IMG/VR virus record: IMGVR_UViG_3300006923_000059
Location: 1-38,762 of that record
Reading direction: 5' to 3' (one strand)
Source of the DNA: a virus
DNA length: 38,762 nt
This document shows positions 1 through 26,728 of the stretch, in pieces; the stretch's first letter is position 1; each line of letters begins with the position of its first letter. The translations under genes and the position numbers were made by a program. The notes beneath the pieces were generated by a model. It saw only the letters and a list, made by a program, of their open reading frames with translations, searched no databases and was not told the origin of the DNA.

Positions 1-1315
1 ATTTATTTATTTTTATTCCCTCGGCATCATTGAGTAACTTATTGTTTATGAAAGAAGATAGATTCAAAGACGGAATAACCCAAGGAAATCCATCAGAGAT
101 ACCATTGGAATTGATATCATTTTTAATGTCATCCATTATAGGAAAATCAATAGAAGAATTTAATAAACTATCATTTGTGGAGGTGTGTGTAAATTTACTG
201 CTTATATCACCAAACTTATACTCCATGGCCGACCAATGGGTTATAATTGCATAATTATTCTTGGTAAATCCTTTCAGTTCTTTTTTATCGGGCTTTGTTG
301 TGTATAGTTTACCAATCCCTGTATCTAAATTACCGAAGGCTTCTTGACCCCCATATCCATAAAATTCACCCAAATAAAATCCACCGAATTTATAATCACC
401 GATTTTCCAACCATCAACAACACTTCTCGAAACTGTTTTAGTTTTAATAAATTCCTGCAAAGGTGATATACCATCATCACTACAATCTAATGGAATGCCG
501 TCTTTAATTCCCATCCAAAATCCATCACAATCCTTTGCCTTCTTTATTTGACACGAATCTTTTCGTACACATGCAGAAAAAATTGATGGATCATTTTCAG
601 TGAATATTTTATCGACCGATGTATTATTACCAACAGAAAATACCCCATCTTTCTTTGTTGATAAACCACCTTCTTCGACAAGTTTTCTGAAACCAACATC
701 ACCACACATAATACCATCATCATCGGTAGGATCATCACACGCAACGTCTGGATGATGTGTTGCAGTACCATCTGGATTTACATCTGTTTGCTTTTCTCCG
801 CATTCTATTCCAGAACAAACATCATAACATTCAAATCCACCATCACCCAAATCTACACAACACCCTTGAGGAAATCTTACATCATATTCGATGGGATCAG
901 GAATCTGTGGGTTTTCTGACTTCCCTCTTGTACAAAATCCGAAAATGTCATCAACTTTTGAGCAAGATTGGTTTGCTCCCAACCACACCCCACCTATTGA
1001 AGAACATTCACAAAATGAAATATCGTCTGCTAATCCACCACTATAGTCCGACTCACCCTGATCAATTGAGTCCATGTAATCCTCAAAGCTGTCAACGTAA
1101 CTGCAAGCGCAGCAACACCCAGTGTCGCTTATAGATGGACATTTTATATCTTCTGTTTCTTCTCCATATTGAAAATATCCGTTGTCATCAATACATTGAC
1201 TATATGAAGTGTTGTCTGATGAGTTCCCATCAGGATAACAACAAATTCCTTGATCAGAAAGGTCTGTACTATAATCTGCTGTTGATTTAATTCTCGATCT
1301 GAATTGAATGCTCAT
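1..1315 (-). CDS. Cys-rich virion protein with DUF1566-like C-terminal part (3' end beyond window)
   Basis: The frame opens at an ATG at 1313-1315, 19 bases after the stop of the 3078-aa gene, and stays open to base 1, so at least 438 codons are present and the C-terminus lies outside. The first ~200 residues are Cys-rich, with GICCYPDG, DTGCCCAC and QGCCVDLGDGGFEC motifs matching the modules of the neighbouring giant genes. The later part is Cys-poor. Around residues 305-325 it reads GDYKFGGFYLGEF, and around 406-418 PWVIPSLNLSSFI. These resemble the GDLYAGGMVVGLY and WYIPSQDEMSFI segments of the DUF1566-like domain in the 1045-aa protein. I infer another tail adhesin at the end of the fibre gene run. 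Upstream GAAAAAGAT is a weak ribosome site. There is no collagen stalk, unlike its three neighbours. Confidence 0.8.
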   Translation of the reverse strand, partial: MSIQFRSRIKSTADYSTDLSDQGICCYPDGNSSDNTSYSQCIDDNGYFQYGEETEDIKCPSISDTGCCCACSYVDSFEDYMDSIDQGESDYSGGLADDISFCECSSIGGVWLGANQSCSKVDDIFGFCTRGKSENPQIPDPIEYDVRFPQGCCVDLGDGGFECYDVCSGIECGEKQTDVNPDGTATHHPDVACDDPTDDDGIMCGDVGFRKLVEEGGLSTKKDGVFSVGNNTSVDKIFTENDPSIFSACVRKDSCQIKKAKDCDGFWMGIKDGIPLDCSDDGISPLQEFIKTKTVSRSVVDGWKIGDYKFGGFYLGEFYGYGGQEAFGNLDTGIGKLYTTKPDKKELKGFTKNNYAIITHWSAMEYKFGDISSKFTHTSTNDSLLNSSIDFPIMDDIKNDINSNGISDGFPWVIPSLNLSSFINNKLLNDAEGIKINK

Positions 1316-1334
1316 ATATTATATATCTTTTTCA

Positions 1335-4300
1335 TTACCGGCACAGAGGATATGGACAATTTGGTGAAATGCAATTCATCCAAACACACTGTCCAGATGG
1401 AAGTTTAACATAACTATTTAGATCTTCAAATTCTTTGCCGCGTGGTGGTGGTGTCGCATCACAAAGAATGCATTTGGGATCATCATCTTTACATTCAATA
1501 TCGTGATCTGAACATACTGAGTTATCACCGTAGTATTCACCTCCTGCGGTCTCGCAAGCAGTATGACCCCATCCCTCCGAACAAGAATTATTAATGCAAC
1601 ACGCACCAGTTGGGACATCTTGATCTGCACACTCTGCATATTCAGAAAAGTCTGCACATTCACCATCACCCTTCCAGTGACTCGCAGAAATAGAATCACA
1701 TTCGTATTTTATTGTTCTAATGCATGACGGATTTCCACCATCATCGTAACAACACACACCAAGGTCACATGGTTTCATACCGGTTGCAGGATCAATCATA
1801 GTACAATCGTCATATGATGTTAGAGGTTGTCCATCTTCATCACTGCATTGTTGTTGTGTTATATCTGAACAATTTCCTGTATATATTCCTCCAACTTTCT
1901 CACAACACGCATATGAATCGTCTACACACTCGTCTGTACAATCATTTACTAATGTACCGTTGGTGCAGCATGTCCAATTCTCATCGCATGCAAAGGTTGA
2001 CGTGTTACAACATGATGGTCTTCCATCACAAGGGTCACCGGCACATGAATTATTTATGTTCCACTCACCCTTGCACTTTTCGCATTCCGCTTGGGATTTG
2101 TCAGTCATACAGGTACTATCACCATAACAGCAACGACCCACAGTGATCGGAGTGCAATTCACATCTGCACATGCATCATCCCAGTACCAATCATAGCTGC
2201 CGAGTTCACCGCACTCCCAGAAAGTTAGGTTTTCTACACATGTGTCTGTACTAAGGCAACATGCTCCTACTGGTGCGCCGCATGCGTTCGCGGTGCAAGT
2301 TCCATTTGGGCTCCATGTATAATTGGAAACACAGGTAAGGCTGCAATTGCTTTGAGTGACATTATCGGTGCAGGACCACATTCCACCAGCATTTTCACAA
2401 CAACAAGATCCATAATCTGGATTACATGATATATCGGCACACAGTATACCTATACCTTGGTATATACCACTCAAATTAGAACAATCATCTTGAGAGAGGT
2501 TATCCGAGCAACTGGTATCAAAACAGCAAGCACCTTCGCAAGCACGGCAAGTTGACCCAATACCCATCCAAGTGCCGCTGTTGTTCAAGCAGTCTTGTTG
2601 AGTACCATCTTCTCCACATGTGCTATTTGCATAATAACAACAGGCACCGTCTTCACTTATAGGGGCACAAGGGTCACCGGCACATGTTGAATTGTCACCT
2701 TGGTATGTACCACCAGCAGCAGAGCAGTCTGCTTCAGTACCAGTTCCACAACTTGTACCAACACAGCAAGCACCTGTTGCAGGAGGGGCACAAGGGTCAC
2801 CGGCACATGTTGAATTGTCACCTTGGTATGTACCACCATCCCAAACACAATTACCTTCTGTCACTACTGAACAAACATTACTAATGCAACACGCACCAGT
2901 TGTGTAGTTGGCACAATCTAATTCGCATGTCTGCCCCGCTTCCCAATTACCACCCCAAGCACACCAGGAAGGCAGAGTGGGGTCGGCACACTGCACTTCA
3001 GTTATATTATCAGTGCAACTGTCCCCCGGATTGTCACAACAACACATACCCGTACCAAGATTACACGGGTTTTGGGTACATAGGTCGTTGTGCCAGGTTC
3101 CACCACCACATTCGTAGAGTGTTAGATCAAGACAACTTCCACCACCCGATAAACAACAACCACCAAGTGTGCATGGTAATGTATCACAATTTGAATCGTC
3201 GCCCTGCCATGAAGCACCTCCTGTGTTGTCGCATCCAAACTGTGTCGTAGTAGAACATCCACCTTGATCGTCACAACAAGCACCACAAGGGTTGTCATCA
3301 CATTCATGGTCCTCACCCATCCAATCGCCTGACGCACTTATACATTCTTTTTGGGTCATTGTTTGACATTCATTATCAATGCAACACCCACCATCAATAT
3401 CGTCGCACAATTTGGGAGTACAAGCAACACCTGTACCATAGTGATCACCATCTTTACCATCGCAAACACTCACAGATACCTCGGTACAACTTGTACCAAC
3501 ACAACACGCACCGCAATCGGGGCAACACGTATTCATCCCACAGGTTGAATCGTTACCTTGGTATATACCACCTGAAGCACTGCAGTCAGCAGCAGTTTCA
3601 ATAGAACAACTTGTATCAACACAGCATGCGCCAGTTGTGTTAGAGCAAAGGTCATCGGTACAACTAGTACATCGGTACCAAGTACCACCCAACCCTTCGC
3701 CATCATCTGGAATGCCCACGCACCATGATTGTGATTCTGCAGTACAGATTGGGTCTCCATTAGCGTCCTCGTAACAACAAGCACTGAGACCACAATCTGG
3801 TAATTGGGGTAGATCAATTTGATGTTCAATTACACAGAACGGGTCTGTACAGGTGCAGCAAGGCGCGACCACGTCAGTCTCAGAATCTCTTTCAGTCCAG
3901 AAGGGACCGTCGAATTCGGTTGGGATGAATATGCAGTCTTGTTCAATAACACCCTCTTCGCACTCCCACGAATTTGTTGCTTGTACACAACAAGTTCCAC
4001 ACTTTCCACATGTCCCATTCTCCCACACTTCATCTCCAGTATTCCAAGTACAGGGCTCACAGAGTTCATTGTCACCTTGGTAATCGCCCCCCAGCCATCG
4101 CACACATGCGTTCTCTGTCGTCTCCGCGCAAATTTGAATATCACTGCCATTATGAGTGTAGGTAAAACAACACGCTCCTTCAGGAATGTTACAAATATCA
4201 ACATCTGCGTCTTCACAACCTGAGCAGGTTTCATCGTTGCACCCTTCCAATACTCCATCCATCGGTTGTCCACCTTCCTCGACACACCTGCAAAATGGTA

Positions 4301-7300
4301 TATTAACACAATTTGGTTTGTGATCCGGGTGATCGCAACAAATAACGGTAGGATGCGAAACGTTGTTGCAAGAAGCAGGCGTATCACAGTAGTGTTGAGA
4401 CCCACATTCCCAAATTAATCCACCGACACCACCACCGCATGGGTCGCATGTGTCACCATCAATGCACCACCTGACGTAGCACTCCCCCGGATCGTTATCG
4501 CCGCAGCATAACTTGCAAGGGTTCTCGCCGGAAAGTTCATCACAGCTGGGAACGGTTCCTGCAGCATCAGGACCTTCAAAGAATCCACCAAGTACGCATT
4601 CACATGTTTGTTGTGCAACATCATCTGTGCAGATGTGCTCCCTTGGAATATTGTCACATTCGTCCCCAGCGCCGAGTCCGCAGGGGTCGGAACATCCACA
4701 GCAAGCATCGGCAATGTATTGCCCTGGGGGATCTAATATCACACAGAGATCTTCTTCATACTCCCAGCACCCACCGTTCCAGCAACACGCATGCGATGGA
4801 TTGGGGCATTCACAGGCCGCAGGTTCCAAGTGACAGCATCGTCCCTTTGGTTCGTAACAATTGCGATCATTGCAACTCGTCATTTCAGAAGTTCCACCAA
4901 GACCTTCACACACAGCTGGTGCTATTTCTAAACAAATTCCGGGAGGAATACAGCAACTATATGAGGTGATGTGGTTTATACACTCATATAGAAAATTTGG
5001 AAAATCTTGGGAAGCACTTTCAATTCTTTTCCAAGTTCCAAGTTCCCAATCGCCGTTGTGGTCACAAACTCCGCTCGCAGGACAGAGTTCTGTGCAAGCA
5101 ATGTCCTTTGCATAGTTTTTGTATGTATCTGGGATCACGCCCTCTGGCATTGGCCAAGCCCAAACATGACCACTACATACTCTCGGTCCGGTGAATTCTC
5201 CAATATTTTCTGCGAAACTTCTTATCTGATCTGCTGGTACCCTCGCACCCCCACCTGACATGCAGAAATCGATAAAATCGGAAACAACAATGGTCCACTG
5301 TGGGATTGTGCCTAGGGTCTTGTGTGGTGGCAGCACATAACTACCGGCAGATTGAAGAGCTCCAGCAATACAAGTAGCACCCGTAGGGGGTGGGGCATCG
5401 GCCATATTTTCCACCATCCCACATAAATGTGATCCGTCCCAAATTATGAGGCTGCCGTCACCGTTCACATCATATACGCCACCCGGGAAAAGTTGGTCAG
5501 TATCAACTAATTGTTCTCTTAGCCAAATTTGTACTGTATCAGTACCACTACCCTGAAATGTTAGTATAGAAACTGTAATAACTCCCATACCACTCATTGT
5601 ATTATTCGTCCCATTAAATGCCTCACAAATTCCAGCAACGGACTTCAGAAGCATAGGACCATTCACACTACCAGATGTATCTATCAGGAATGCAATATGC
5701 GGATTGTCACGTTCAGGGTCAAACTCAGCAAATCCAATACAATATTTCTCGGTGTTGCCGCATTCCACTGAAACGGAGTCATTGCAACTGGTTTGGTTTT
5801 GAACAAACAAATCACGGCAACAACAATCCAAGGGGCAAGGGTCACAACAATCAGCGGTGACCGAGCAATCCGAGGTTTCGATGAATTTGCTCCATTCGTA
5901 CGCTCCTTCGTAAGGGTCGGTCGGAAACGTTGGGGGATCGCCGGGTTTCACCAAAATCGATGGGTTATAACAACACTTCCCATAACTAGCGACCGAACAT
6001 GGCCCACCATCACAAGCCCAGTAGTCATCAACCACCATACTACAATGACCTTCCATGCAACACCCAGGATTAGCAGGATCTTGCTTATTACAACAAACGT
6101 CGCAAGAATTGTTGTTCATCCACTCTCTTTTGTAATACCCATCATCCCCCCAAGGGGTTGAGTCAACCCAGTAAATGCAACAAATACCGTCGTCATCGTC
6201 ACCCCTTCCCCCATTGATCCTATTGTCATCTCCTGCAGCAGTACAACAAATTTCACCTACACCATACCATGTTCCGTCTGCTTCGAGACATTCTTTTTCT
6301 GATAAATCTTGACAACTAGAACCGAGACAGCAAGCACCCACTGGTGATGTCTGACATGGATTTGGACTGCATGCTGAACCCGACCCCCACCACTCTCCTC
6401 CGCAATCATCTTCCGAAGATATTGAACATGACTCACCATTGCAGCAAGCACCCATTACTTCTTGATCACCACAACAATTTACAGCATTTTCACCATCACA
6501 TTTGGTGTTTGGTCCCATAAATTGTCTACCAGTGCTATTACATATGTTGCTGTTAGTTTCTTCGCACGATTCACCGTCTGGTGAACAACAAGCACCAACA
6601 TATATTGTTGCATTGCAACAATCGACTTCACCGCATTCTCCTGGTACTGCTATCCCACCGTATACAAATTCACAAATTGTCCTTGAGAGTGGTGGCAGGC
6701 AGGGCATGTCTGAATCGCAATGACCCATAGAGTCACCGATACAAACACCATCTTTACAACAAGCAATAGGATCACAACACGGACTTACACAAATATCATC
6801 ACTAAAATTAGTACAATTTTCCCCGATGTCATCACATTCACCCGTACATTGTCCATCTAAATGCCATATATTTCCATCACTTACTAAACAATTCGGCTGC
6901 GTCTGACCAACTATACAATCGTATCCACCACTGCCTGTTGGGATACAACAAGAACCCGTTACAGAACATGTCACACAAACATCGTTCTCGCAACATAGTC
7001 CAGCTCCACAATCATCATCGTCGGTGCAAGCTCCTGTGCAAGTCACACAAACATTGTTCTCGCAACATACAACACCAATTCCACAGCAATCACCATCAAT
7101 TCCACAATACTCTCCGATAGAAGACTCACAAACATTGTTCTCGCAACATTGTCCAGCTCCACAATCATCATCGTCGGTGCAATCTCCTGTGCAAGTCACA
7201 CAAACATTGTTCTCGCAACATAGTCCATCATCACAATCCTCTGGGACGGTGCAATCTCCTGTGCAAGTCACACAAACATTGTTCTCGCAACATACAACAT

Positions 7301-10300
7301 CAATTCCACAGCAATCAGCATGATTTCCACAAGAGTCTCCGAGAGAAGACTCACAAACTTTGTTCTCGCAACATTCTCCATCTCCACAATCATCATCGTC
7401 GGTGCAATATCCTGTGCAAGTCACACAAACATTGTTCTCGCAACATAGTCCATCATCACAATCCTCTGGGCCGGTGCAATCTCCTGAAGAAGCACAACCA
7501 CCGTCGCAACCGGTTCCTGCACATGTTGTGTGTATTCCCATCCAAACTGGATTAATTATGGGGTTCCAGCCACCGTTCGATTTGATGCTCTCTGGTATGC
7601 ATTCACCACCATTTTCCATGCAGGCACAAGTATCGGAACCTACCCCTTGATCGGGTTCGCAGGGTCCACTCATGAAGAAACCGCCCTGGTTGTGGCAATT
7701 TAAACGATTCATTCCCTCGTCAATACATTGAGGACCTCCTTCGTGGGGTATGCAACACGCACCATCATTGATGTTGGTGCCATCTTCGTGAACCGGTGCA
7801 TAGATTATGCCATCAGAAGAAGGTTCCAAACAGGTCCACGGACTGTGCGCCTCGAAGCAAACTGGAGTTCCGTTTTTGAGTGTTGCACAGCAAGCACCAG
7901 GTGTGCATCCCCAACAACTACCATACTTTTTCGATGAATATTGTTGCTCGCTGGCCTCTAGGACAGAAAGCCAAGCGGGGGAATCTGGATTCAAACACCC
8001 TTTTAGTTGATCTGGAAAATGAGTTTTACCACTTCCGATCCCACAATCGTGGTCACAGGACCAACTTGGATCAATGATGTCTGCGCAACGATCATTTTTC
8101 TGCACGCAACGATCGTCTTCGAGCCATCGCCCCCAAGGTTCTTCACCCTGAAATGGTCCGGTCTGGGGGTTGAACCGATTATAAGAATATCTACTCGACC
8201 ATATGCTGCGAGATACGAGGTTTTTGGTGCATACTGATCCACCATCGGGTCCATAAATGCATCTGCCAGGGTTGTACATATTGTTGTCAAAATAACATGC
8301 ATCACATGTCTCAACGCCGGGCATACAATGCTGGTTGTTGTGCCAACAATTAGTCATGGTATTATGAGAACAATCAGAAGCGCACATATTACCTGGATTA
8401 CAGACCCATTCGTTGTCTCCTTCGAACCCGCAACACTTCTCTGAACCATAGGCACCCAATGAACAAATCGAAAACGAATGGTTCTTGTCCCAGCGACCCA
8501 GCTGGGCGAAACAATCAACTACATTACCCTGACATTCCGGTCCATCTGGACCAGCCCAGCACTCGCAATTGGTTGGATCGCCATCCCCCCCTTGGCCCTG
8601 ATCACAGCCCGGGCAACCCAAGCAATTTTGGTCGTTCCAGCACCATTTCGCGCCATATGGTGCTTTTTGGAGAATTCCCCACAAAGTTGAGTCACAGCCC
8701 GTTCCCGAACAATCGGGTGGGTGTGAAGTGAGGCTTGGATATTGTTCAACCATATTCATCGCGTAGTCTTTGGACATCCAAAAACCATCCCAATGTCCAA
8801 ACATCAAGGTGCCCATAAAGTGGTACTTTACTGGAAAAAGTTGTACGGTGTCTTCGGCCAGTCTGCATTTCGTTCCGCATTTATCGGGATCGCCGCAAGC
8901 ATCCCCGCATTCGGCGTCCGGGACGTGTATTATCTCAACTTCCGATTTCCAAGTTACCTCTGTTCCTATTCCTAGGAAAGTACCACCAAACCATGCACAA
9001 TCATCTGCGGTCATGTAATTTTGGTAACTGCCGCACTCAGGATTCCCATATGGTACGGACCCCATAGTGTTGTTGTCGTCGGGCATTTGCATACAACAGG
9101 CTCCGCGTTCGTCTTCCCCAACATTACCATCTTGTTCGTAGGTCCAGGGGAAGTCTTCATCACCAGAACTACGATGATGTTCATCTGTAATAATGTCACG
9201 AATGCTTCTATTTTTGTTTAGTAGTCCTTCTAAATTATCGCAAGTAATTGGAATCGGCTCTGCCAATAAAACCATTCGTCCAGTTTCTTCTTCTCTTTCA
9301 TAATAAAAATAGTTCCAAAAAGTACCACCAAAATAATCACACTCTGCTGCACCAACATTTTCTATACAAACTCTTGTTCCTGTATCCGACCAGTCACCAC
9401 CTTCACTACAACAAATACCAACTGCATCCATACCGCAATTCTCTGCACATGTAGAAAACGCGTTAAAATATCCACCACCTGCATCTGGAACACCATCACC
9501 ATCAAAATCAAAGGGACTGTCCAATTCTTTACATTCTGTTTCTGTCATGTAATCACGACAATTTAATTCATTGTCGTCATCCATATAACAGCAAGATCCC
9601 AAACCATGAACACTTTCGCAATCACTCGTACCATATCCACGAATTGTTACCGTTGCTTTCCAACTTCTTCCTGCATCATAGGAATAAAAGTTGATAATGT
9701 CCCACCCACAAGAGAAATATAAATCATCTTCATCAAAATATACATTTGACGGCCAATCCCAAATTTGATTACCACCCAATTGTATTGTGAAGTTGAAAAC
9801 CTCAAGTTCGTTAAAATCTCCAACAATCTCATTGATACCAACTGGTGTTTCTATTTTATAAACACTACCTCTATTTACTTCTAAGTTTATTCCCGTCTCA
9901 CCACCACAGTATGGACCAAACCCTTCATATTCACCACCAGTAATTCCGTATATGATAGGATCATCAGTGTCTGCACTAAATTGTGGTAATGGTCCAATAG
10001 GAACAATAACTTCTTCTGGGTCATATGACCATTCGTTGCCTGCATCAGTAGTACCAAATGATATAGTACCATCCGATTCAGTCCATAATTTTGTTGCATT
10101 TACAGTTCCTGTTCCAGACAAATATGCAAGCCTATCCTTGACTGCACTCTCCACCACACCCACAATATATGGAATATCACCACTGATACCAATAGTGTTA
10201 TCAGAAATATATGATCCCAATGATCCCTCGGTAGTTATACCTTTGAACCAAAAAGTTGTTCCGTCTGAAACTTCTTTAAATATAGAGTATTGGTTGTCAC

Positions 10301-10571
10301 CCAAAGTCAAACCATCAGCATTTCCAGCAACACCAGTTGGGCCGTGAATATGTTCTATCGTTAGTTCTCTACCATCAGAAAGAACTAATTTTAAACTTGT
10401 TTCGTATGGATACCCCGAAAGAATGTACGCTCCAGTTGCACCAGTTAATCCGGTTGCACCAGTTGGACCAGATGCACCTGTATGACCAGTGAAACCAATA
10501 GGACCAGTAAGCCCTAGTGGCCCCTCGACTGAATCTGGTATTACTACGGCACTACTTCCGATTACTGGCAT
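1335..10571 (-). CDS. Giant 3078-aa collagen-stalk, VWA-containing, Cys-rich tail adhesin
   Basis: No single known family covers this protein. Residues 17-48 are eleven Gly-X-Y triplets (collagen-like stalk). Residues ~50-330 are a Cys-poor, beta-rich-looking fibre region. After that come more than thirty degenerate Cys modules of the type GACC..(S)C...T...C...GG.Y.G..S.C....C, best conserved at residues ~2250-2950. Residues ~1026-1203 form a Dickkopf/WAP-like block of repeated CTDDDDCG.G.CCENNVC units. Residues ~1623-1865 form a von Willebrand A domain with MIDAS residues D1631, S1633, S1635, T1733 and D1765. The ATG at 10571 is preceded by AAAGGATGA, a plausible ribosome site, and the short GSS-containing leader before the stalk is shared with the next two upstream genes. 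The product is probably a secreted-type adhesive structure on the virion. The cytoplasmic origin of so many cysteines is odd. Some patches are far more GC-rich than the flanking baseplate genes. Confidence 0.9.
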   Translation of the reverse strand: MPVIGSSAVVIPDSVEGPLGLTGPIGFTGHTGASGPTGATGLTGATGAYILSGYPYETSLKLVLSDGRELTIEHIHGPTGVAGNADGLTLGDNQYSIFKEVSDGTTFWFKGITTEGSLGSYISDNTIGISGDIPYIVGVVESAVKDRLAYLSGTGTVNATKLWTESDGTISFGTTDAGNEWSYDPEEVIVPIGPLPQFSADTDDPIIYGITGGEYEGFGPYCGGETGINLEVNRGSVYKIETPVGINEIVGDFNELEVFNFTIQLGGNQIWDWPSNVYFDEDDLYFSCGWDIINFYSYDAGRSWKATVTIRGYGTSDCESVHGLGSCCYMDDDNELNCRDYMTETECKELDSPFDFDGDGVPDAGGGYFNAFSTCAENCGMDAVGICCSEGGDWSDTGTRVCIENVGAAECDYFGGTFWNYFYYEREEETGRMVLLAEPIPITCDNLEGLLNKNRSIRDIITDEHHRSSGDEDFPWTYEQDGNVGEDERGACCMQMPDDNNTMGSVPYGNPECGSYQNYMTADDCAWFGGTFLGIGTEVTWKSEVEIIHVPDAECGDACGDPDKCGTKCRLAEDTVQLFPVKYHFMGTLMFGHWDGFWMSKDYAMNMVEQYPSLTSHPPDCSGTGCDSTLWGILQKAPYGAKWCWNDQNCLGCPGCDQGQGGDGDPTNCECWAGPDGPECQGNVVDCFAQLGRWDKNHSFSICSLGAYGSEKCCGFEGDNEWVCNPGNMCASDCSHNTMTNCWHNNQHCMPGVETCDACYFDNNMYNPGRCIYGPDGGSVCTKNLVSRSIWSSRYSYNRFNPQTGPFQGEEPWGRWLEDDRCVQKNDRCADIIDPSWSCDHDCGIGSGKTHFPDQLKGCLNPDSPAWLSVLEASEQQYSSKKYGSCWGCTPGACCATLKNGTPVCFEAHSPWTCLEPSSDGIIYAPVHEDGTNINDGACCIPHEGGPQCIDEGMNRLNCHNQGGFFMSGPCEPDQGVGSDTCACMENGGECIPESIKSNGGWNPIINPVWMGIHTTCAGTGCDGGCASSGDCTGPEDCDDGLCCENNVCVTCTGYCTDDDDCGDGECCENKVCESSLGDSCGNHADCCGIDVVCCENNVCVTCTGDCTVPEDCDDGLCCENNVCVTCTGDCTDDDDCGAGQCCENNVCESSIGEYCGIDGDCCGIGVVCCENNVCVTCTGACTDDDDCGAGLCCENDVCVTCSVTGSCCIPTGSGGYDCIVGQTQPNCLVSDGNIWHLDGQCTGECDDIGENCTNFSDDICVSPCCDPIACCKDGVCIGDSMGHCDSDMPCLPPLSRTICEFVYGGIAVPGECGEVDCCNATIYVGACCSPDGESCEETNSNICNSTGRQFMGPNTKCDGENAVNCCGDQEVMGACCNGESCSISSEDDCGGEWWGSGSACSPNPCQTSPVGACCLGSSCQDLSEKECLEADGTWYGVGEICCTAAGDDNRINGGRGDDDDGICCIYWVDSTPWGDDGYYKREWMNNNSCDVCCNKQDPANPGCCMEGHCSMVVDDYWACDGGPCSVASYGKCCYNPSILVKPGDPPTFPTDPYEGAYEWSKFIETSDCSVTADCCDPCPLDCCCRDLFVQNQTSCNDSVSVECGNTEKYCIGFAEFDPERDNPHIAFLIDTSGSVNGPMLLKSVAGICEAFNGTNNTMSGMGVITVSILTFQGSGTDTVQIWLREQLVDTDQLFPGGVYDVNGDGSLIIWDGSHLCGMVENMADAPPPTGATCIAGALQSAGSYVLPPHKTLGTIPQWTIVVSDFIDFCMSGGGARVPADQIRSFAENIGEFTGPRVCSGHVWAWPMPEGVIPDTYKNYAKDIACTELCPASGVCDHNGDWELGTWKRIESASQDFPNFLYECINHITSYSCCIPPGICLEIAPAVCEGLGGTSEMTSCNDRNCYEPKGRCCHLEPAACECPNPSHACCWNGGCWEYEEDLCVILDPPGQYIADACCGCSDPCGLGAGDECDNIPREHICTDDVAQQTCECVLGGFFEGPDAAGTVPSCDELSGENPCKLCCGDNDPGECYVRWCIDGDTCDPCGGGVGGLIWECGSQHYCDTPASCNNVSHPTVICCDHPDHKPNCVNIPFCRCVEEGGQPMDGVLEGCNDETCSGCEDADVDICNIPEGACCFTYTHNGSDIQICAETTENACVRWLGGDYQGDNELCEPCTWNTGDEVWENGTCGKCGTCCVQATNSWECEEGVIEQDCIFIPTEFDGPFWTERDSETDVVAPCCTCTDPFCVIEHQIDLPQLPDCGLSACCYEDANGDPICTAESQSWCVGIPDDGEGLGGTWYRCTSCTDDLCSNTTGACCVDTSCSIETAADCSASGGIYQGNDSTCGMNTCCPDCGACCVGTSCTEVSVSVCDGKDGDHYGTGVACTPKLCDDIDGGCCIDNECQTMTQKECISASGDWMGEDHECDDNPCGACCDDQGGCSTTTQFGCDNTGGASWQGDDSNCDTLPCTLGGCCLSGGGSCLDLTLYECGGGTWHNDLCTQNPCNLGTGMCCCDNPGDSCTDNITEVQCADPTLPSWCAWGGNWEAGQTCELDCANYTTGACCISNVCSVVTEGNCVWDGGTYQGDNSTCAGDPCAPPATGACCVGTSCGTGTEADCSAAGGTYQGDNSTCAGDPCAPISEDGACCYYANSTCGEDGTQQDCLNNSGTWMGIGSTCRACEGACCFDTSCSDNLSQDDCSNLSGIYQGIGILCADISCNPDYGSCCCENAGGMWSCTDNVTQSNCSLTCVSNYTWSPNGTCTANACGAPVGACCLSTDTCVENLTFWECGELGSYDWYWDDACADVNCTPITVGRCCYGDSTCMTDKSQAECEKCKGEWNINNSCAGDPCDGRPSCCNTSTFACDENWTCCTNGTLVNDCTDECVDDSYACCEKVGGIYTGNCSDITQQQCSDEDGQPLTSYDDCTMIDPATGMKPCDLGVCCYDDGGNPSCIRTIKYECDSISASHWKGDGECADFSEYAECADQDVPTGACCINNSCSEGWGHTACETAGGEYYGDNSVCSDHDIECKDDDPKCILCDATPPPRGKEFEDLNSYVKLPSGQCVWMNCISPNCPYPLCR
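2661..2838 (-). repeat. Tandem Cys module with 123-bp period
   Basis: Bases 2661-2715 and 2784-2838 are identical over 55 bp, a 123-bp (41-residue) period. Both encode the GGTYQGDNSTCAGDPCAP end of a Cys module. The intervening sequences encode GACCISNVCS and GACCVGTSCG starts. Most other modules in the gene have diverged much further, so this pair looks recently duplicated. Confidence 0.85.
4980..5707 (-). other. Segment encoding von Willebrand A domain with intact MIDAS
   Basis: Within the 3078-aa protein, residues ~1623-1865 read HIAFLIDTSGSV (DxSxS), then PPTGATCIAGALQSAG (the MIDAS threonine and the usual following helix), then WTIVVSDFIDF (the final MIDAS aspartate). Spacing and order fit a metal-ion-dependent adhesion site of the VWA family, which binds protein or glycan ligands through a divalent cation. 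The domain is flanked on both sides by Cys-rich modules. It also contains an EF-hand-like DVNGDGS loop near residue 1695, a possible additional calcium site. Confidence 0.85.
6965..7490 (-). repeat. Dickkopf/WAP-like Cys repeat block with 225-bp higher-order repeat
   Basis: Seven near-identical copies of a segment encoding CCENNVC(V/E) lie at irregular 70-80 bp steps. Above this is a longer repeat of exactly 225 bp (75 residues): the CTxPEDCDDGLCC unit, the CTDDDDCG unit and the ESS.G..CG...DCCG unit recur in the same order. A landmark CTCTGGG lies at 7239-7245 and again at 7464-7470. The repeat is in frame and coding, and reads as a recent segmental duplication. Confidence 0.85.
10428..10523 (-). 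repeat. Collagen-like Gly-X-Y stalk of the 3078-aa protein
   Basis: Residues 17-48 form eleven uninterrupted Gly-X-Y triplets, with Thr or Ala frequent and Pro present (for example GATGLTGATG). Collagen-like runs in phage fibres usually mark a trimeric stalk, so this adhesin is probably a homotrimer. Matching stalks occur at the same place in the next two upstream genes. Confidence 0.85.
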
Positions 10572-10612
10572 TAAATATCATCCTTTAATAAATTAAATAC
10601 TAATTATGTATA

Positions 10613-13270
10613 CTAAGTAAAACATCCGTCACATCCATTCACGCAAATACCTTGCTTATTTTCACATTCAGAACACGGTATAGGATTCTTATATTCTTTA
10701 CATCCACCCATAGGCAAACAGCACGAACATGTCATCCATACTGGATTCTTTAAACTTGTTTCATCTAAGTATGGAACACAACCGTGTTTGTTTGGCTGCC
10801 ATTGTTCTGGTTTATTACATATTGATATGTTTGTCGGTAAAGAAGTTGTTTTGATTTTTGTTTCGTTACTGTTACATTCGCCCCCAGAACAGTCGAACAC
10901 TGCAAAACCACCGAGATCCTTACAATCACTAACAATACCACCTTCACCTAATGCACCTTTCCAACAAGCTTCTGGACAACAGCAATCACAATCACCATAT
11001 CCAGCCTCTATTATCCATCTATCTTTATTTTTTGGTGGAATAACAATTCCTGGTTCCATACAAGAAGACAATTCACCAACACCAGAACACCCACCAGATG
11101 CTTTTGGTTTAGGTATTGGTTTTCTTTCTTTTGATGATTTTTGAACTGATTTATTAGTCTTTCTTAATTTTCTTCGAGAAGAAATGATGTTGTATGATGG
11201 TTGTGATGGTGAATCTCCCGATCCAAAATCATTTGCCGTCCTAACAGTCGTACAAGATTCACCATCACAATCACCACCAGTCCATATTCCACCACCCTCC
11301 CAACATTCTGAAATACTTAATTCAGGAGAACAACTTGTACCAACACAGCATGCGCCGGAATCACAATCTATATTTGCACACAATTTTCCAGAAACAAATA
11401 CTCCACCCCTTGACCAACAATCATCATCAGTCAACTGTGAACATGTATATGCACCATTTACATCTATGCAACATGCACCAGTAGGATTTAATTCATCTGG
11501 ATTTGGCTGATTCCTACAACATTCCCAACATTTATTATCAACCAATTTAATTGTACCGCAACTGTCTCCATCTTTACAGGAGTATGATGGATCACTGGTG
11601 GGTGAACAGTGACAATCAATTCCGGGGCAAAGACAAGGAGTATCATCCCCACAAGATCCATCCCCATATTCATACGTCCATCCCGTACATTCACATGTAC
11701 ATGGTGGAGGAGTAGAATCACATACACAATTCCCACCCTCGTCCAATAGACCTCCAATTTCGGGTCCGTCATCCCCATCAACCAGACAGTTAAATGGTGC
11801 ATATGCAGCATCGGCAACTCCCGACCCCTGAATTAAATTCAAACCTGCACATTTGGAACCAGTTCCCCAATATATCCCCCTACTGGTTCCGTCATTAGAT
11901 TCCAACGAAGAACAAATTGCCGGCGTCGTTTGATAACAAACTTCATCTACACAACAAGCACCATAATTTCCTTCTAAGCAGCAATTTGTCTGATCACAGG
12001 TTTTATCGAACCATATACCTTCTGGATAAAAAGCACATGCGTCTTGAGACATTTCATAACATTCATTGTTAATGCAACATGCACCCAACCCAGTACACGG
12101 ATCCACACATCCACCCAGACTTTCTATACTTGTTCCTCCAAACGGATCAATGCATGGAATTCCTTGAACAAACAAACCACCATATGTTTGACATTTTGTC
12201 TCACTTGTGTCTATACATCTACCGTTTACGCAACATGCACCCTCAGAATAACAATTTGGTCCTTCTGATCTGTGCAAACATACAACATCTGAAAATTTGC
12301 CACCAACTTCATCACAATATAATTTAGTTACATAATCTATACAATCTCTATGATCAACCTTGTTTGGATCTTGATCTTCTGTACAATAGCAACAGGAACC
12401 AATAGAAACATCTGTTTGTAATAATTGGGAACTGAAAGTTACACCAGGGAATCTATAAACTTCTCCACCACCCAAATGAATCCCACTTGCAATCGCAGTT
12501 GATCCAGCAGGCCCACCATAATTCTCAGATGCTACAATACTACTAAATGTTACAGAAGTCCCTGTTACACCAGAAACACTTACAACAGGAGTTGTGTTTG
12601 TTGGGTCTGTGTTCCATACCGGAAGATTGTTGTTATCTGTTGTATTCTGCCATCGTTCTCTGTGTCTTAATATTCTTGTTTGAAGATACTCACCATCATG
12701 ATGGTTTTCCCAATATGTATTTTTTGCACCACTACCAGACAATCCACCGGATGAAGAATCCCAAGCAAAAATTAATTCACCAGTATTACCCAACCGACCG
12801 TCACCAGTTGCACCACTAAGAAGTATAGTATAATCATCTGGTTGGTTGACAGTTATATCTCTACCAGAAACGGTAAGGTTTCTGAAATATGCAGTTATTC
12901 CTATCTTTTCTTTGAATAATTCTCCATAATCTGGACCTTGGATCGTATTGGTAATAGAATATTCGGCAGTTTCTGCAGTACCTGTATTACCACGAACTCC
13001 TGTTATACCAAGAGTGATGCCTTCTTCCAACGAACCTTCTTCATTATATCCTTCGAGAGTTACTACTATTTGATATTCATTACTGGATGGACCTGCTGTT
13101 CTGGTTCCCACAGCACCCTTAATTCCTTCACCCGTATATCCTATTGGGCCCTGACCACCAGTTGGACCAGTTGGACCAGTTGGGCCTCGTTGACCACGCG
13201 AACCACTTGCCCCAGTTAGTGGACTGATTCCTGTTAGGTCATCTATTCTACTGCTTCCGTGTATTACCAT
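10613..13270 (-). CDS. 885-aa collagen-stalk, Cys-rich tail fibre protein
   Basis: It starts MVIHGSS, close to the MVSIIHGSS of the gene upstream, followed by a Gly-X-Y stalk at residues ~20-49. A Cys-poor fibre region runs to about residue 280. Then follow Cys modules such as GACCVNGRCIDTSETKC, GACCINNECYEMSQDAC and GACCVGTSCSPELS. A Lys/Arg-rich, Cys-free linker at residues ~693-723 (RRKLRKTNKS, KPIPKPK) separates the main Cys block from a last Cys-rich segment ending GICVNGCDGCFT. The ATG at 13270 directly abuts the TAG of the upstream gene, and AAGGT precedes it by a few bases. It lacks the VWA and Dickkopf-like parts of its 3078-aa neighbour. It is probably a paralogous trimeric fibre on the same baseplate; the ligand is unknown. 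Confidence 0.88.
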   Translation of the reverse strand: MVIHGSSRIDDLTGISPLTGASGSRGQRGPTGPTGPTGGQGPIGYTGEGIKGAVGTRTAGPSSNEYQIVVTLEGYNEEGSLEEGITLGITGVRGNTGTAETAEYSITNTIQGPDYGELFKEKIGITAYFRNLTVSGRDITVNQPDDYTILLSGATGDGRLGNTGELIFAWDSSSGGLSGSGAKNTYWENHHDGEYLQTRILRHRERWQNTTDNNNLPVWNTDPTNTTPVVSVSGVTGTSVTFSSIVASENYGGPAGSTAIASGIHLGGGEVYRFPGVTFSSQLLQTDVSIGSCCYCTEDQDPNKVDHRDCIDYVTKLYCDEVGGKFSDVVCLHRSEGPNCYSEGACCVNGRCIDTSETKCQTYGGLFVQGIPCIDPFGGTSIESLGGCVDPCTGLGACCINNECYEMSQDACAFYPEGIWFDKTCDQTNCCLEGNYGACCVDEVCYQTTPAICSSLESNDGTSRGIYWGTGSKCAGLNLIQGSGVADAAYAPFNCLVDGDDGPEIGGLLDEGGNCVCDSTPPPCTCECTGWTYEYGDGSCGDDTPCLCPGIDCHCSPTSDPSYSCKDGDSCGTIKLVDNKCWECCRNQPNPDELNPTGACCIDVNGAYTCSQLTDDDCWSRGGVFVSGKLCANIDCDSGACCVGTSCSPELSISECWEGGGIWTGGDCDGESCTTVRTANDFGSGDSPSQPSYNIISSRRKLRKTNKSVQKSSKERKPIPKPKASGGCSGVGELSSCMEPGIVIPPKNKDRWIIEAGYGDCDCCCPEACWKGALGEGGIVSDCKDLGGFAVFDCSGGECNSNETKIKTTSLPTNISICNKPEQWQPNKHGCVPYLDETSLKNPVWMTCSCCLPMGGCKEYKNPIPCSECENKQGICVNGCDGCFT

Positions 13271-16200
13271 CTAGTACCTTTGGTTTATTCCTTTGTCTTC
13301 GTCTCGCAAAACATTCGGCATCTTCCACAACTTATAGTTGTTATCAGACCCGTCAGCAAATCGACCATCACACCTAATCAAACGAATAGGTCTTACCTGA
13401 TATGTATTCTGTGTTCTATCTTTCTTTCCTACCATAAAGTTTTCCACTATACCATTTTGATCAAACTTCATAGCCCAGGCAACAGTTCCTGGATCTGCGG
13501 TTACACCAGAAGGTCCAGTTGCACCAACAGGATTTATAATTCCCTCACCTGCACCTGCAGTCCTACCTTTTGTTTCGTTGAATCCACCACTGGAAGTCCA
13601 GTGCCATCCATGAATAGGTTCTCCACCTTCTTCTAATAATTTAATATTTAAATCAAACCCATCATATGTTCCTAAACAATTTGAAGCAATAAACGACATT
13701 TCATCTTGACTGGGGATATACCAACTAGAAACATTATTTGAATTTGAACCAGTTGCCCCTGTTGCTGAAATTAATCTATCATCAAATAATCTAGTAGCAC
13801 GAAATGCAGAAATATAAGAACCTGTTAAACCTGGACCGAAATCAACAGAAGAATAATCTCCAGCAGGATCATTATAGTTTTTATATAGTGCATTATCCGC
13901 ACTAATGATTCTAATATTATTATACATTCCCCAATTTCTATGCCATAATCCGTGTGCTGTCTGTGGTGATTTTGTTTTTAGTTTTTGAATAGCACCATTA
14001 CCCAATCGTCTTGCTTTTCGACACGAATCAAATGTGTTGACAGCGATATTTCCCAAGGAACCACTACCAGCATTTTGATCATACCAATAACCTTCAGAAA
14101 GTCTAAATATTTTAGATTTATAATCTGGTGTTATGTCATCATACTTGCCGGTTTTTTGGTTATATAGTGGTCCCCATGCACTACCAAGATTTCCCCAATA
14201 GAATTCACCAGTTGCACCATATATTTCTTTTGGATTCACTATATCACGATCACCCGTAATTCCTAACGGATGCATAGAAATTACGACATAATATGCATCA
14301 GGTCTGCTAGTCATTTCCTGCGAAAGTGACATATTATCATATTCTGGACATCCATCAGAATCAAATCCATATCCATGATAATCATATTTTGATCTATATG
14401 AATTACAAGAAAGTCCATAAGAATCTAAGGTTGCACCAGAACTACCACTTAGTAGGTTTTGCCATTTAGTATATTTACTACCACCAAACCACTTATTACC
14501 AAACATATTAGAACCATATGGTCTATAAAGTCCAACAACCATACCACCCGCATATAAATCACCCGGTTGTAAATCTAATCCAGCAACCTCAGTCACACAA
14601 CCCGATGTTGTATCATTAGTTCTGCATGAAATATCTCCACATAAAGACCCATCACCAGTGTATATGAAATTATTGTCTATACATCCTGCACCAGTTGCAC
14701 CATCAACACAAATACCAGAACCCTGACAACATGCCCCAGTACCACCAGAACAAATATTGAATCCATATCTTTGTGAATAGCACGATAGTCCGATTCCTTG
14801 GAAATAATGTCCTTGTTTCAAACAAACAGATCTGTTTAGTTGTTTACAGTTTCCTATTCCGTCACAACATGCACCAATTTCCTTGGAAATTTTACCACAC
14901 TTCATATCATTACAGATACTACCAGTACCACCAAATGCAGAAATGTTGTTTAGTAAATTTCCTATATCGACACAATCATTTACGGACATTTCTTCGTAAC
15001 AATTAACATCGTTTGTTTGCTCATTAGTTACGCAACACGAACCATATGTGTCATAACAAATTCCACTCGTACTACCAGTTCCGCCTGTTCCACAAACACT
15101 ACCACTTCCATGATAATATCCAGTACATGCATTTTCTGTAGTGTGTACACAAACTCCGTCACCTATGCAGCAAGCACCAGTCGAACCAGTTGTTCCATCT
15201 ATGTATGGATACTCTCTAAAGTTTTTGTTATAAATATATCCACCACCATCACAATCAAAAACATCATCGGTATTTCCACTTGAATAATTTTGAGAATGGT
15301 ATTGAATTATATTTCCATGCCAAGCAGCATCACCAACGCAACTATCTACAGTTCCGTCCCCATCCAAATCTCTAGATTCACACGGTAACCAAAAGAAATT
15401 GAAAATGTCAGTACCACCACTCCAACAAGGTTGCTTGTCTAGTGGCCAAATTATATTAGAACCAGCAAATCTAACAGTTCCATCTGCATTCGATGCACCA
15501 TGAACTATTAGAGTAAATGCTTTGCCGTATTTTGTACTTGTGGTTGCTTCTGATGATCCGTCGGGACCCTGTCCAGTGTAACCAAACTTAGCATCAGTAA
15601 ATCTAAGTTGTACAGGACCAATTGATCCATCAGCAGGAACACCATCAACTTGTCTCATGTCCAACACAAATATCTTTGAAAGGTTTGGGTTTATTGGACT
15701 TCCTTCGGGAGTTGTATAGAATATATTACCACCTGGACCCACATCAACAACATCAGCATCTTCACCAACTATAAGATATTTTGTTTTTTCTTTATAACCT
15801 TTTATTCGTGCATCAATTGCATATGCACCATCTTCCATTCCTAGACTAGAACCACGATCATATGTTGTACCAAGAACCCCCACCAATAACCCAGTGGTGT
15901 CTGGATCTGTTGAAACGAGTTCTCCATGATTTCCACTTTCAATGTTTACATATCCAAAATCACCTCGATCATAATAAATATCGACAGTATCAATAGAATC
16001 GTCTTGTGTGAGAATGACGGCATCACCCCAAACTTCAAGAGTCTTCAATACGATACTATCTAAATCACCTGCTGCATTTCTACCTTTACCAAAAGTAGCA
16101 CCACCAATATCGTATGTGTTACCAACATCAATCAGGTTATATGTTGATCCAGTTGGTCCCTTTATTCTTGTATTTGTTGTATAGTTAGATTTTGATCCAT

Positions 16201-16408
16201 CAAAAGATGTAAACTCGACATATAAATGTCCAAAATCATCGGTGAGATACATGTTGGTGATGTTATCACCACTATATCCTCTTGGTCCTGTTCTTCCTTG
16301 ACCTGTTGCCCCAGTTGGTCCAGTTGGACCAGTGGGTCCAGTTGGACCGGTAATTGCCGTTTGTCCGATTGGTTTGAAGTGACTACTACCATGAATTATT
16401 GATACCAT
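13271..16408 (-). CDS. 1045-aa collagen-stalk tail fibre with Cys modules and DUF1566 (Lcl_C)-like tip
   Basis: The leader MVSIIHGSS is followed by a Gly-Pro-Thr stalk at residues ~21-47. Residues ~50-380 are a Cys-poor fibre body. About five Cys modules follow (GACCIGDGVCVHTTENAC, GSCCVTNEQTNDVNC, GACCDGIGNCKQLNRSVC, GACCQGSGICVDGATGAGC). From residue ~612 the protein resembles the DUF1566/Lcl_C family seen at the C-termini of Legionella collagen-like adhesins and many phage or bacterial surface proteins: GDLYAGGMVVGLY, SSWYIPSQDEMSFI near residue 895, GWHWTSS, WAMKFDQNG and VRPIRLIRC near the end. The order stalk, modules, globular tip suggests a receptor-binding fibre. The start is preceded only by AGAATAAACT, a weak ribosome site, so translational coupling to the gene upstream is possible. 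Confidence 0.88.
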   Translation of the reverse strand: MVSIIHGSSHFKPIGQTAITGPTGPTGPTGPTGATGQGRTGPRGYSGDNITNMYLTDDFGHLYVEFTSFDGSKSNYTTNTRIKGPTGSTYNLIDVGNTYDIGGATFGKGRNAAGDLDSIVLKTLEVWGDAVILTQDDSIDTVDIYYDRGDFGYVNIESGNHGELVSTDPDTTGLLVGVLGTTYDRGSSLGMEDGAYAIDARIKGYKEKTKYLIVGEDADVVDVGPGGNIFYTTPEGSPINPNLSKIFVLDMRQVDGVPADGSIGPVQLRFTDAKFGYTGQGPDGSSEATTSTKYGKAFTLIVHGASNADGTVRFAGSNIIWPLDKQPCWSGGTDIFNFFWLPCESRDLDGDGTVDSCVGDAAWHGNIIQYHSQNYSSGNTDDVFDCDGGGYIYNKNFREYPYIDGTTGSTGACCIGDGVCVHTTENACTGYYHGSGSVCGTGGTGSTSGICYDTYGSCCVTNEQTNDVNCYEEMSVNDCVDIGNLLNNISAFGGTGSICNDMKCGKISKEIGACCDGIGNCKQLNRSVCLKQGHYFQGIGLSCYSQRYGFNICSGGTGACCQGSGICVDGATGAGCIDNNFIYTGDGSLCGDISCRTNDTTSGCVTEVAGLDLQPGDLYAGGMVVGLYRPYGSNMFGNKWFGGSKYTKWQNLLSGSSGATLDSYGLSCNSYRSKYDYHGYGFDSDGCPEYDNMSLSQEMTSRPDAYYVVISMHPLGITGDRDIVNPKEIYGATGEFYWGNLGSAWGPLYNQKTGKYDDITPDYKSKIFRLSEGYWYDQNAGSGSLGNIAVNTFDSCRKARRLGNGAIQKLKTKSPQTAHGLWHRNWGMYNNIRIISADNALYKNYNDPAGDYSSVDFGPGLTGSYISAFRATRLFDDRLISATGATGSNSNNVSSWYIPSQDEMSFIASNCLGTYDGFDLNIKLLEEGGEPIHGWHWTSSGGFNETKGRTAGAGEGIINPVGATGPSGVTADPGTVAWAMKFDQNGIVENFMVGKKDRTQNTYQVRPIRLIRCDGRFADGSDNNYKLWKMPNVLRDEDKGINQRY

Positions 16409-16416
16409 AGTTTATT

Positions 16417-17754
16417 CTACTTCTTTGTGATGTTTGCATTGCCGGTTGTTGAACTCGCAATTCCATTTATTGCCAAATCTAATGCATCAAGTTTGGTTTG
16501 CATTTCATTGAGTGCTTCTGCAAGGTCGGACACTTTTACATTCTCATTTTCTGCAATTATCTTTGTTGCATCTATTTCAACAACTTTGATAGAATCTGGA
16601 ATAGACATCGCATGTGTTTTCATTGCAGCACCACTCCCCCTGATTGCATCTGATCCACTATAAACATAAAATTCAATTGGCATATCTTTGTCAGTGTCAC
16701 CGTCTGAAACTCTTATAGTCTTTAATGAATTATTTCTAGATATTCCTGGATATTGATATGTCTTGTAACTAAAAGAACTTGCGGTAAATAATAAACCATT
16801 ACTCACATTTATAACTGCTCCATTTGTTATAAACTGTTCAAACTTTCCATAATATGAACTAGAGAATGTAACTCTTATAGTCTTTTGTGCAGAATTAATG
16901 TCTTTAATATATCCAACTAGTTTAGAAGAACCACTTTTGATGATAATTCTTTTATTGTTTATATTAGAAGTTGGAATCTCTTTCACATTTATTTCCAAAA
17001 CGGTACTACAAATATCACCTATGGTTTTATATGCAGTATAATATGTTTCTCCTTTTAATGGGTCTAAATTATAAGTTCCCCCAAGAGGATGCCAACCTCG
17101 TTTGGAAGAACTTGAATCTATCTCCAATCCAGCTGGAACCATCACCATCGAACCTAGGGGAACCGTATTTGTATCTTCCACTACGATTTGTCCACCCTGT
17201 TGATATCCGATATAATTTACTACTTGTCCAGTAAACGGATCATCAGGAGCGACTTGATATATTGGTTTGATAACTTGTGTTGCTTCTGCTGGTGCAAGAT
17301 TTTGAATAACACCTCCAGTTGCAGCACTTAGAAAATAAACATCATTACCACCCGCAGAACCAGTCAAACCAGCCTCTGCATCAATGTGTTGAGAAAGACG
17401 AAGTTTTGTTGTGGGATAATTTATTTGTCCAGATAATACAATGACGGCAGTTGCATCATTACCACTACTAATACTTTCAATGATACCAACAACTTCGGAA
17501 TTTGCAGGAACATCCGCTTGTGCTTTAATATATTTACCACCACTAGGATTAGTTACTGAATCATATGGGATTGCATTATATCTGACTGCATCACCAGCAG
17601 TGACACCATCGTCTCCAGGATGTCCAGACAATCTTCCACCAGAAAAACCACTCAACGGAACAGTCATTAATAATCTTGCACCACTACCCGAAACATCACT
17701 GACATTGACATTTCCTAAAAGATTTGAACTATTTGCTGCGCAACTACTTGACAT
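16417..17754 (-). CDS. Phage virion structural protein, fibre-associated (445 aa)
   Basis: This is a Cys-poor protein whose N-terminal 200 residues contain GDAVRYNAIPYD, GGKYIKAQADVPANSEVVGIIES and GNDVYFLSAATGGVI. These segments recur in altered form in the 778-aa gene just upstream and, as I recall, in fibre or decoration proteins of marine T4-like phages. The C-terminal ~50 residues (VSDLAEALNEMQTKLDALDLAING) look like an amphipathic coiled coil, fitting trimerisation. A clear ribosome site, GGAGATAAC, precedes the ATG at 17754, and the gap to the upstream stop is 13 bp. Its place between wedge and fibre genes suggests a fibre connector or short fibre. No catalytic motif is seen. Confidence 0.75.
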   Translation of the reverse strand: MSSSCAANSSNLLGNVNVSDVSGSGARLLMTVPLSGFSGGRLSGHPGDDGVTAGDAVRYNAIPYDSVTNPSGGKYIKAQADVPANSEVVGIIESISSGNDATAVIVLSGQINYPTTKLRLSQHIDAEAGLTGSAGGNDVYFLSAATGGVIQNLAPAEATQVIKPIYQVAPDDPFTGQVVNYIGYQQGGQIVVEDTNTVPLGSMVMVPAGLEIDSSSSKRGWHPLGGTYNLDPLKGETYYTAYKTIGDICSTVLEINVKEIPTSNINNKRIIIKSGSSKLVGYIKDINSAQKTIRVTFSSSYYGKFEQFITNGAVINVSNGLLFTASSFSYKTYQYPGISRNNSLKTIRVSDGDTDKDMPIEFYVYSGSDAIRGSGAAMKTHAMSIPDSIKVVEIDATKIIAENENVKVSDLAEALNEMQTKLDALDLAINGIASSTTGNANITKK

Positions 17755-26260: not shown

Positions 26261-26728
26261 TTATCTTACCTTTATTATTCCTATATTAATTGAATCTCTT
26301 AAGTGTTTTCCGTCTAAACTAACCTTATTTAAGAAATATGAAATGTAAACATATAACATATTGGTGTCAGATGCATATGCTTTTGCATCTGATATATTAT
26401 GTCCGGGAACCGTAGAAGATTGTTCTGTGATGGGAGCATCATTTATTATGATATCATCCGTTCTAACTCTCGGTTCAAACAGTTTTATAGCATCCCTCAA
26501 TTCCATTTCCAACCTCATATTATCCATAGGACTAAAATTTTCAAACAACATATCATTGATTCTGGTGCCAAATTTTCTATTGAACGGTTTTTCACCAGGG
26601 ATAGTCAGAATAAGGTTAATAAGAGATTGTCTTACTGCATAGACATCTTTCATCAAAGAAACATCTCCTGTGAATTTGTTTTTGCTAAAATTTATATCAA
26701 TATCTGAATTTACGGTAGAAAGTGCCAT
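26261..26728 (-). CDS. 25: Baseplate wedge protein gp25 (GPW/gp25 family)
   Basis: The segment AVRQSLINLILTIPGEKPF, then NRKFGTRINDMLFENFSPMD and LRDAIKLFEPRV, is the GPW/gp25 core motif. This includes the EKPFN..FG element typical of contractile-tail sheath-platform proteins. At 155 aa it is slightly longer than T4 gp25 (132 aa). In T4, gp25 sits at the inner wedge and nucleates sheath polymerisation. AGGAGATTAAT precedes the ATG at 26728. The gene is followed immediately by gp6, a pairing seen in most contractile tail systems. Confidence 0.93.
   Translation of the reverse strand: MALSTVNSDIDINFSKNKFTGDVSLMKDVYAVRQSLINLILTIPGEKPFNRKFGTRINDMLFENFSPMDNMRLEMELRDAIKLFEPRVRTDDIIINDAPITEQSSTVPGHNISDAKAYASDTNMLYVYISYFLNKVSLDGKHLRDSINIGIIKVR

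Follow-up and report, generated by a model that had tools for sequence, protein, structure and literature searches.

Giant proteins with cysteine-rich GACC modules encoded in the baseplate and tail operon of an uncultured T4-like phage lineage

The window analyzed here is a stretch of 38,762 bases, corresponding to positions 1-38,762 of the IMG/VR virus record IMGVR_UViG_3300006923_000059. It carries a cassette of five minus-strand genes, gA to gE, whose products contain a recurrent cysteine module, hereafter the GACC module. Four of these genes are consecutive, as the first-pass annotation had described: gA (2-1315), the last gene of the cassette, with 438 aa in the window and its C-terminus past the edge; gB (1335-10571), encoding 3078 aa with 359 Cys (11.7%); gC (10613-13270), encoding 885 aa with 8.5% Cys; and gD (13271-16408), encoding 1045 aa with 3.3% Cys. 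The four open reading frames (ORFs) total 5446 aa, in line with the more than 5400 residues previously given. The fifth gene, gE (27624-33671), was likewise found within the baseplate cluster, where it separates two halves of the hub gene and encodes 2015 aa with 233 Cys (11.6%). The gA product (5.3% Cys) has a Cys-rich N-terminal half and is devoid of collagen-like sequence, and the complete homologue seen in a relative has 531 aa.

The neighboring genes on the same strand encode a gp53 baseplate wedge (35733-36767; PF11246, 3e-11), an N-terminal hub part (hubN, 33678-35717; phrog_350 profile positions 166-358), a C-terminal hub part with a conserved Cys motif (hubC, 26766-27605; phrog_350 profile positions 349-428), a gp25 baseplate wedge (26261-26728; PF04965, 1e-11), a gp6 baseplate wedge (24469-26259; PF21379, 5e-15) and a baseplate wedge-like protein (23075-24457; PF23786). 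Next to the cassette lie a tail fibre gene (17768-20104; phrog_4492) and a gene for a 445-aa protein (16417-17754), a conserved neighbor of gD that has a domain in common with the tail fibre gene. The gp53, gp25 and gp6 profiles all score over their cut-offs within one operon, so the previously proposed linkage to these genes holds, and a phrog_219 match (6e-83) provides further backing for a T4-like baseplate wedge set. These profile matches support the assignment of the cassette products to a T4-like baseplate/tail operon. A TnsA-like endonuclease gene (PF08722, 2e-17; 37715-38134) adjoins the operon on the opposite, plus strand.

The hub is represented in the window by two ORFs covering consecutive parts of phrog_350; in Sinorhizobium phage phiN3 and Pelagibacter phage HTVC008M it is a single protein of 416 or 445 aa. 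Three distant relatives (G010, G021 and G027) have a single ORF of 1555-1675 aa that includes both parts, separated by ~900 aa of inserted sequence, as well as a second stretch resembling the C-terminal hub part (hhalign 94.5%). On this comparison, the window's own group has a split hub, with gE at the point of separation. The ~900-aa insert occupies the same place as gE but shows no detectable homology to it (hhalign probability 0.15%), which makes it a counterpart of gE in position at most. No gene matching gp5 was seen between gp53 and gp25 in the window, where gE and hubC fill the slot, and phiN3 carries the gp5 lysozyme gene at the corresponding position.

The spacing of the module is GACC-x4-C-x7-C-x3-GG-x-Y-x-G-x4-C-x4-C, with Y, W or F accepted at the Y position in the module test, and the consensus reported earlier was correct to within one residue. 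A hidden Markov model (HMM) built from 440 distinct modules and applied at a threshold of >10 bits detected 1, 15, 5, 3 and 7 modules in gA, gB, gC, gD and gE, respectively (~31 in total, those of gD at residues 411-600), and none in composition-preserving shuffles used as controls. A strict regular expression detected modules in three of the proteins (gB, gC and gE) and gave practically no matches in shuffles. Recognizable modules cover 5%, 18%, 20%, 10% and 12% of gA to gE, and much of the leftover Cys in gB and gE belongs to other Cys-rich patterns. Most of gA and gD is not Cys-rich, nearly all Cys of gD falling within residues 328 to about 620. The statement that the cassette proteins are dominated by Cys modules is therefore only partly confirmed: the modules are real and far above chance, but their coverage is 5-20%, and gA and gD, with 3-5% Cys, are not Cys-dominated, so that a genuine observation had been overstated.

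The main array of consecutive modules occupies residues 2314-2716 of gB (2424-3632, minus strand). It includes an in-frame 123-bp tandem duplication (two copies, 2661-2902, minus strand) whose 41-aa unit equals one module, and elsewhere in gB a 225-bp unit of another Cys-rich pattern (75 aa) is repeated in frame 2.3 times (6970-7486, minus strand) with copies 92% identical. The in-frame repeats noted earlier are thus present at the DNA level. These in-frame copies, one set of them 92% identical, show array growth by duplication.

The N-terminal heads of gB, gC and gD are homologous to one another (hhalign 95.8-98.5% across 125-181 columns, values that the repetitive collagen part may inflate). 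The head and the collagen-like stretch common to the three proteins had escaped the first-pass annotation. The collagen-like G-X-Y runs span residues 17-49 of gB (10425-10523, minus strand), 20-49 of gC and 21-38 of gD, and the Pfam collagen match in gB (E 6e-4) falls below the cut-off. A candidate von Willebrand A (vWA) domain of gB (5172-5729, minus strand) contains IAFLIDTSGS near residue 1628; its match to PF13519 (E 0.076) is below the Pfam cut-off, and the motif is present as DTSGS in the window and as DVSGS in a relative's gB and in the gE-position gene of G038. The C-terminal region of gD (residues 620-1045; 13274-14551, minus strand) is Cys-poor, is conserved in 10 relatives and contains the motif SxWYIPSHDEMAFIA...WTSTGAF...VRPIRxIRCDG, which we take to resemble the W-PS-E...YWTST...VRPIR motif of Mtd/DUF1566-type C-type lectin tips. 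This region gave a weak match to PDB entry 4eps (E 0.042) and no Pfam match, and a fold search with its low-confidence model (pLDDT 48) found nothing; a lectin-like tip is possible on this weak sequence evidence. The distal regions of the cassette proteins matched no Pfam or PHROG receptor-binding family, and no signal-peptide-like start was seen by eye at their N-termini.

An exact-module scan of IMG/VR returned 91 stretches, and T4-like gp6 is present in 18 of the 50 of these records that were searched. The relative L003/G002, whose gp6 is 62% identical, contains all five cassette genes in unchanged order: gp53, hubN, gE, hubC, gp25, gp6, further genes, fibre genes, gD, gC, gB and gA, followed by a gene of ~170 aa and by gp13-like and gp14-like neck genes (named by eye). 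Gene maps revealed the same block in G043, G038, G026 and partly G007; the cassette is more diverged or partial in G021, G010, G027, G040, G005 and G049, and more distant relatives retain the gD-gC-gB-gA order. Between the window and G002, identity is 45% for gA, 49% for gB residues 1-536, 47% for gC, 60% for gD and 42% for gE residues 1-597. In gB and gE the arrays of Cys modules and patterns are mostly unalignable between the two, whereas the N-terminal heads are conserved; in gE the first ~600 aa are conserved and the remainder is variable. Across relatives, the gE-position gene encodes 324-2247 aa, and gB is present in one to several copies. In addition, a distant relative (G040:2622-17744) contains a 5041-aa ORF with 2% Cys at the cassette position.

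In the gp6 tree, ten cassette carriers and two partial contigs fall on one side of a branch with 100/98 support, with no isolate on that side, and the cassette carriers thus constitute one well-supported uncultured group of T4-like phages. Module-bearing T4-like phages also occur elsewhere in the tree, namely G047/G033, G018/G008, and G012, G024, G046, G048 and G004, the last five forming a sister group of the pelagimyophage and cyanophage isolates. Within that sister group, G012, G024, G046 and G004, but not G048, encode Cys-rich proteins of 893-2425 aa between the gp53 and gp25/gp6 genes. Four distinct sister phages, G048 among them, have a gp6 that itself ends in two in-frame C-terminal GACC modules; these fusions (L021, L082, L089 and L094) are encoded by ORFs of 789-799 aa, and the four phages are 86-92% identical. 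Separately, contigs that do not look T4-like (G013, G015 and G009; L271-L278) encode, close to genes of structural appearance, proteins of 300-440 aa that each bear one to three GACC modules, and the module may therefore serve several kinds of phage.

The first-pass annotation knew of no described phage tail of this kind, and tblastn searches of 50,697 phage records with gC, gE, gD, hubN and four modules gave no match (low-complexity filter on), consistent with that statement. A first back-translated peptide scan with gC also gave no match, and a literature search found no published description of either the phage proteins or the module in bacteria. In bacteria, a scan for the exact module pattern across one genome per species (84,980 species) yielded at least 120 loci. 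At least 108 of the 120 loci listed are from Planctomycetota (counted by eye from record titles), which agrees with the suggested likeness to secreted planctomycete proteins; the others listed belong to Myxococcales, Eisenbacteria, Krumholzibacteriia, Zixibacteria, GN15, Gemmatimonadetes, Streptomyces and one unnamed bacterium. Judged by eye, the bacterial proteins appear to be secreted, with signal-peptide-like starts, and many end in dockerin-like repeats. Planctomycete YTV cell-wall proteins are also Cys-rich (PMC8567305). A gp6 profile gave two weak matches and no host link among 397 genomes of the class containing a module-rich Phycisphaerales genome, and no match in the planctomycete members of 19 module-bearing genomes.

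The proposed structure prediction of three to four consecutive modules was carried out on four gB modules (residues 2557-2716; window 2424-2903), using an alignment of 46 rows from phages and bacteria. The model has a mean pLDDT of 91.3 and a pTM of 0.51, the latter making the module-to-module packing of low certainty. Each modelled module comprises a beta-hairpin, a helix and mostly one further strand, with six cysteines, and the GACC module is confidently predicted to be a self-contained fold. The sole matches of the sequence profile in the PDB were iRhom1 and iRhom2 (E 2e-4 to 0.015), and a fold search of the PDB likewise returned iRhom alone (Foldseek E 0.8-1.4), with 37 residues superposing at 1.8 A (Z 3.6). 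A search of BFVD with the module model gave nothing significant, and Pfam scans of the cassette proteins listed no rhomboid domain. The iRhom domain, in which 16 cysteines form eight internal disulfides, has been described as unprecedented (PMC11248996, PMC10148629). It is notable that the sequence and fold searches converge on a single target, but each match is weak and the likeness may reflect convergence, so kinship is offered as a lead only.

Collectively, conserved anchors, variable arrays and collagen-like stretches in a receptor-binding slot make adhesin fibres the best reading of the cassette. We infer that the proteins are located in the virion, trimerize, form disulfides and bind receptors, and that they are probably baseplate adhesin fibres of an uncultured T4-like lineage, collagen-trimerized and with disulfide-knot stalks, gE being a hub extension. 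In position, gA, gB, gC and gD fill the slot between tail-fibre and neck genes, which in other T4-like phages houses receptor-binding proteins. The common N-terminal head would attach gB, gC and gD to the baseplate, and the collagen-like stretch would trimerize them. The GACC knots would each be shut by their own disulfides once the virion leaves the reducing cytoplasm, and strings of knots may form stiff, protease-resistant stalks whose length is altered via in-frame duplication. Distal domains, including the Cys-poor C-terminus of gD, gA and the candidate vWA domain of gB, would bind the host surface, and gE may extend the hub with Cys-rich sequence, perhaps surrounding the central spike. 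The variable length at the gE position, the variable gB copy number and the unalignable arrays are what adhesins would show, and the joining of modules to gp6, a virion protein, in sister phages also counts for fibres. The synthesis of virion proteins in a reducing cytoplasm counts against disulfide-bearing fibres; a search of 21 virus records found neither sulfhydryl oxidase nor thioredoxin families, although these records, being fragments, allow a weak test. It is also conceivable, though unlikely, that the module was taken from the extracellular proteins of (planctomycete) hosts and expanded into fibres that bind the host matrix module-to-module, with disulfides forming only after lysis, in oxidising surroundings; tail and host surface would then share one building block.

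The armour half of the earlier inference, a covalently cross-linked matrix around the baseplate in which cysteines of different chains are linked into a sheet, fares less well than its adhesive half. The very high Cys content, the large protein size and the odd Cys counts of gB, gC and gE, which leave at least one unpaired Cys in each, would suit such a sheet. However, nothing points to intermolecular links: the six-Cys module is predicted with high confidence to fold alone, iRhom, its nearest solved relative, pairs every cysteine internally (PMC11248996, PMC10148629), and collagen-like heads with arrays of variable length suit fibres better. Because the modules appear self-contained with six Cys, interchain cross-linking as the main role is disfavored, and we regard armour as improbable. 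A metal-binding role, in which the cysteines stay reduced and either provide the virion with bound Zn, Cu or Fe or trap metal inside infected cells, has a similarly slim chance. Synthesis in a reducing cytoplasm and the other Cys-dense patterns of gB and gE, whose CC pairs could hold metal, are compatible with this role, but in its spacing and its predicted beta-hairpin/helix fold the module corresponds to a disulfide domain of the extracellular type, and the secreted-type starts and dockerin-like ends (by eye) of the bacterial homologues also speak against it.

Because modules of this type characterize secreted proteins of Planctomycetota, the cassette could encode secreted or surface-displayed infection proteins, such as host-matrix mimics or lysis-stage proteins, that merely lie within the tail operon. 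We give this possibility little weight, since the N-termini lack a signal-peptide-like appearance by eye, the head and collagen-like stretch form a fibre architecture, gp6 bears the module in sister phages, and the co-directional order with baseplate genes is retained in relatives. The abundance of the module in Planctomycetota, together with a GC content that climbs from about 0.38 to 0.47 across part of gB, might also suggest an assembly chimera of phage and planctomycete DNA. However, both the junctions and the gene order are retained in relatives at 46-62% protein identity. A second IMG sample (possibly not independent in origin) also yielded a contig that is 100% identical over 10,271 bp, running from gp53 through hubN, gE, hubC and gp25 into gp6. 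A chimera is ruled out by these diverged syntenic relatives and the identical contig, and with it the earlier proviso that the Cys-rich and baseplate genes might come from different molecules.

The lineage uses a building block absent from the phage records searched, and its proteins of 2000-3000 aa reach Cys contents of about 11-12%. Should the proteins be virion parts, the question arises of how tail fibres rich in disulfides can be assembled in the reducing cytoplasm; the cassette would also help to flag phages whose hosts may be Planctomycetota or their neighbors, and a bacterial and phage module would be tied to an animal iRhom domain, for which the original studies reported no structural counterpart in the databases that they searched (PMC11248996, PMC10148629).

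Among known systems, T4-like cyanophages and pelagimyophages such as HTVC008M have the same variable operon region beside baseplate and neck genes; in pelagimyophages the corresponding slot has been named the host recognition cluster, and collagen-repeat proteins have been reported inside the structural operon of such phages (PMC7029224). However, in the pelagimyophage-type isolates examined, HTVC008M and Melnitz, the tail regions encode no Cys-rich protein, every ORF of at least 300 aa having less than 1% Cys, unlike the Cys-rich proteins of the cassette. Collagen-like phage tail fibres resemble the cassette in their G-X-Y runs near the N-terminus and weak PHROG tail-fibre matches, whereas in the cassette the stalk is replaced by arrays of Cys modules in proteins of up to 3078 aa. 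The secreted GACC proteins found in Planctomycetota (Phycisphaerales), and in a small number of other phyla, have the same module, spacing and tandem arrays; by eye they differ in their secreted-type start and often dockerin-like end, where the phage proteins have a fibre head and collagen-like start and are encoded in a tail operon. The iRhom homology domain (IRHD) of animal iRhom1 and iRhom2 has the CC...C...C...G...C....C spacing of the module, but iRhom has a rhomboid membrane core, and none was seen in the phage proteins. A T4-like tail with fibres is therefore of a known kind, and it is the building block and its scale that are unusual.
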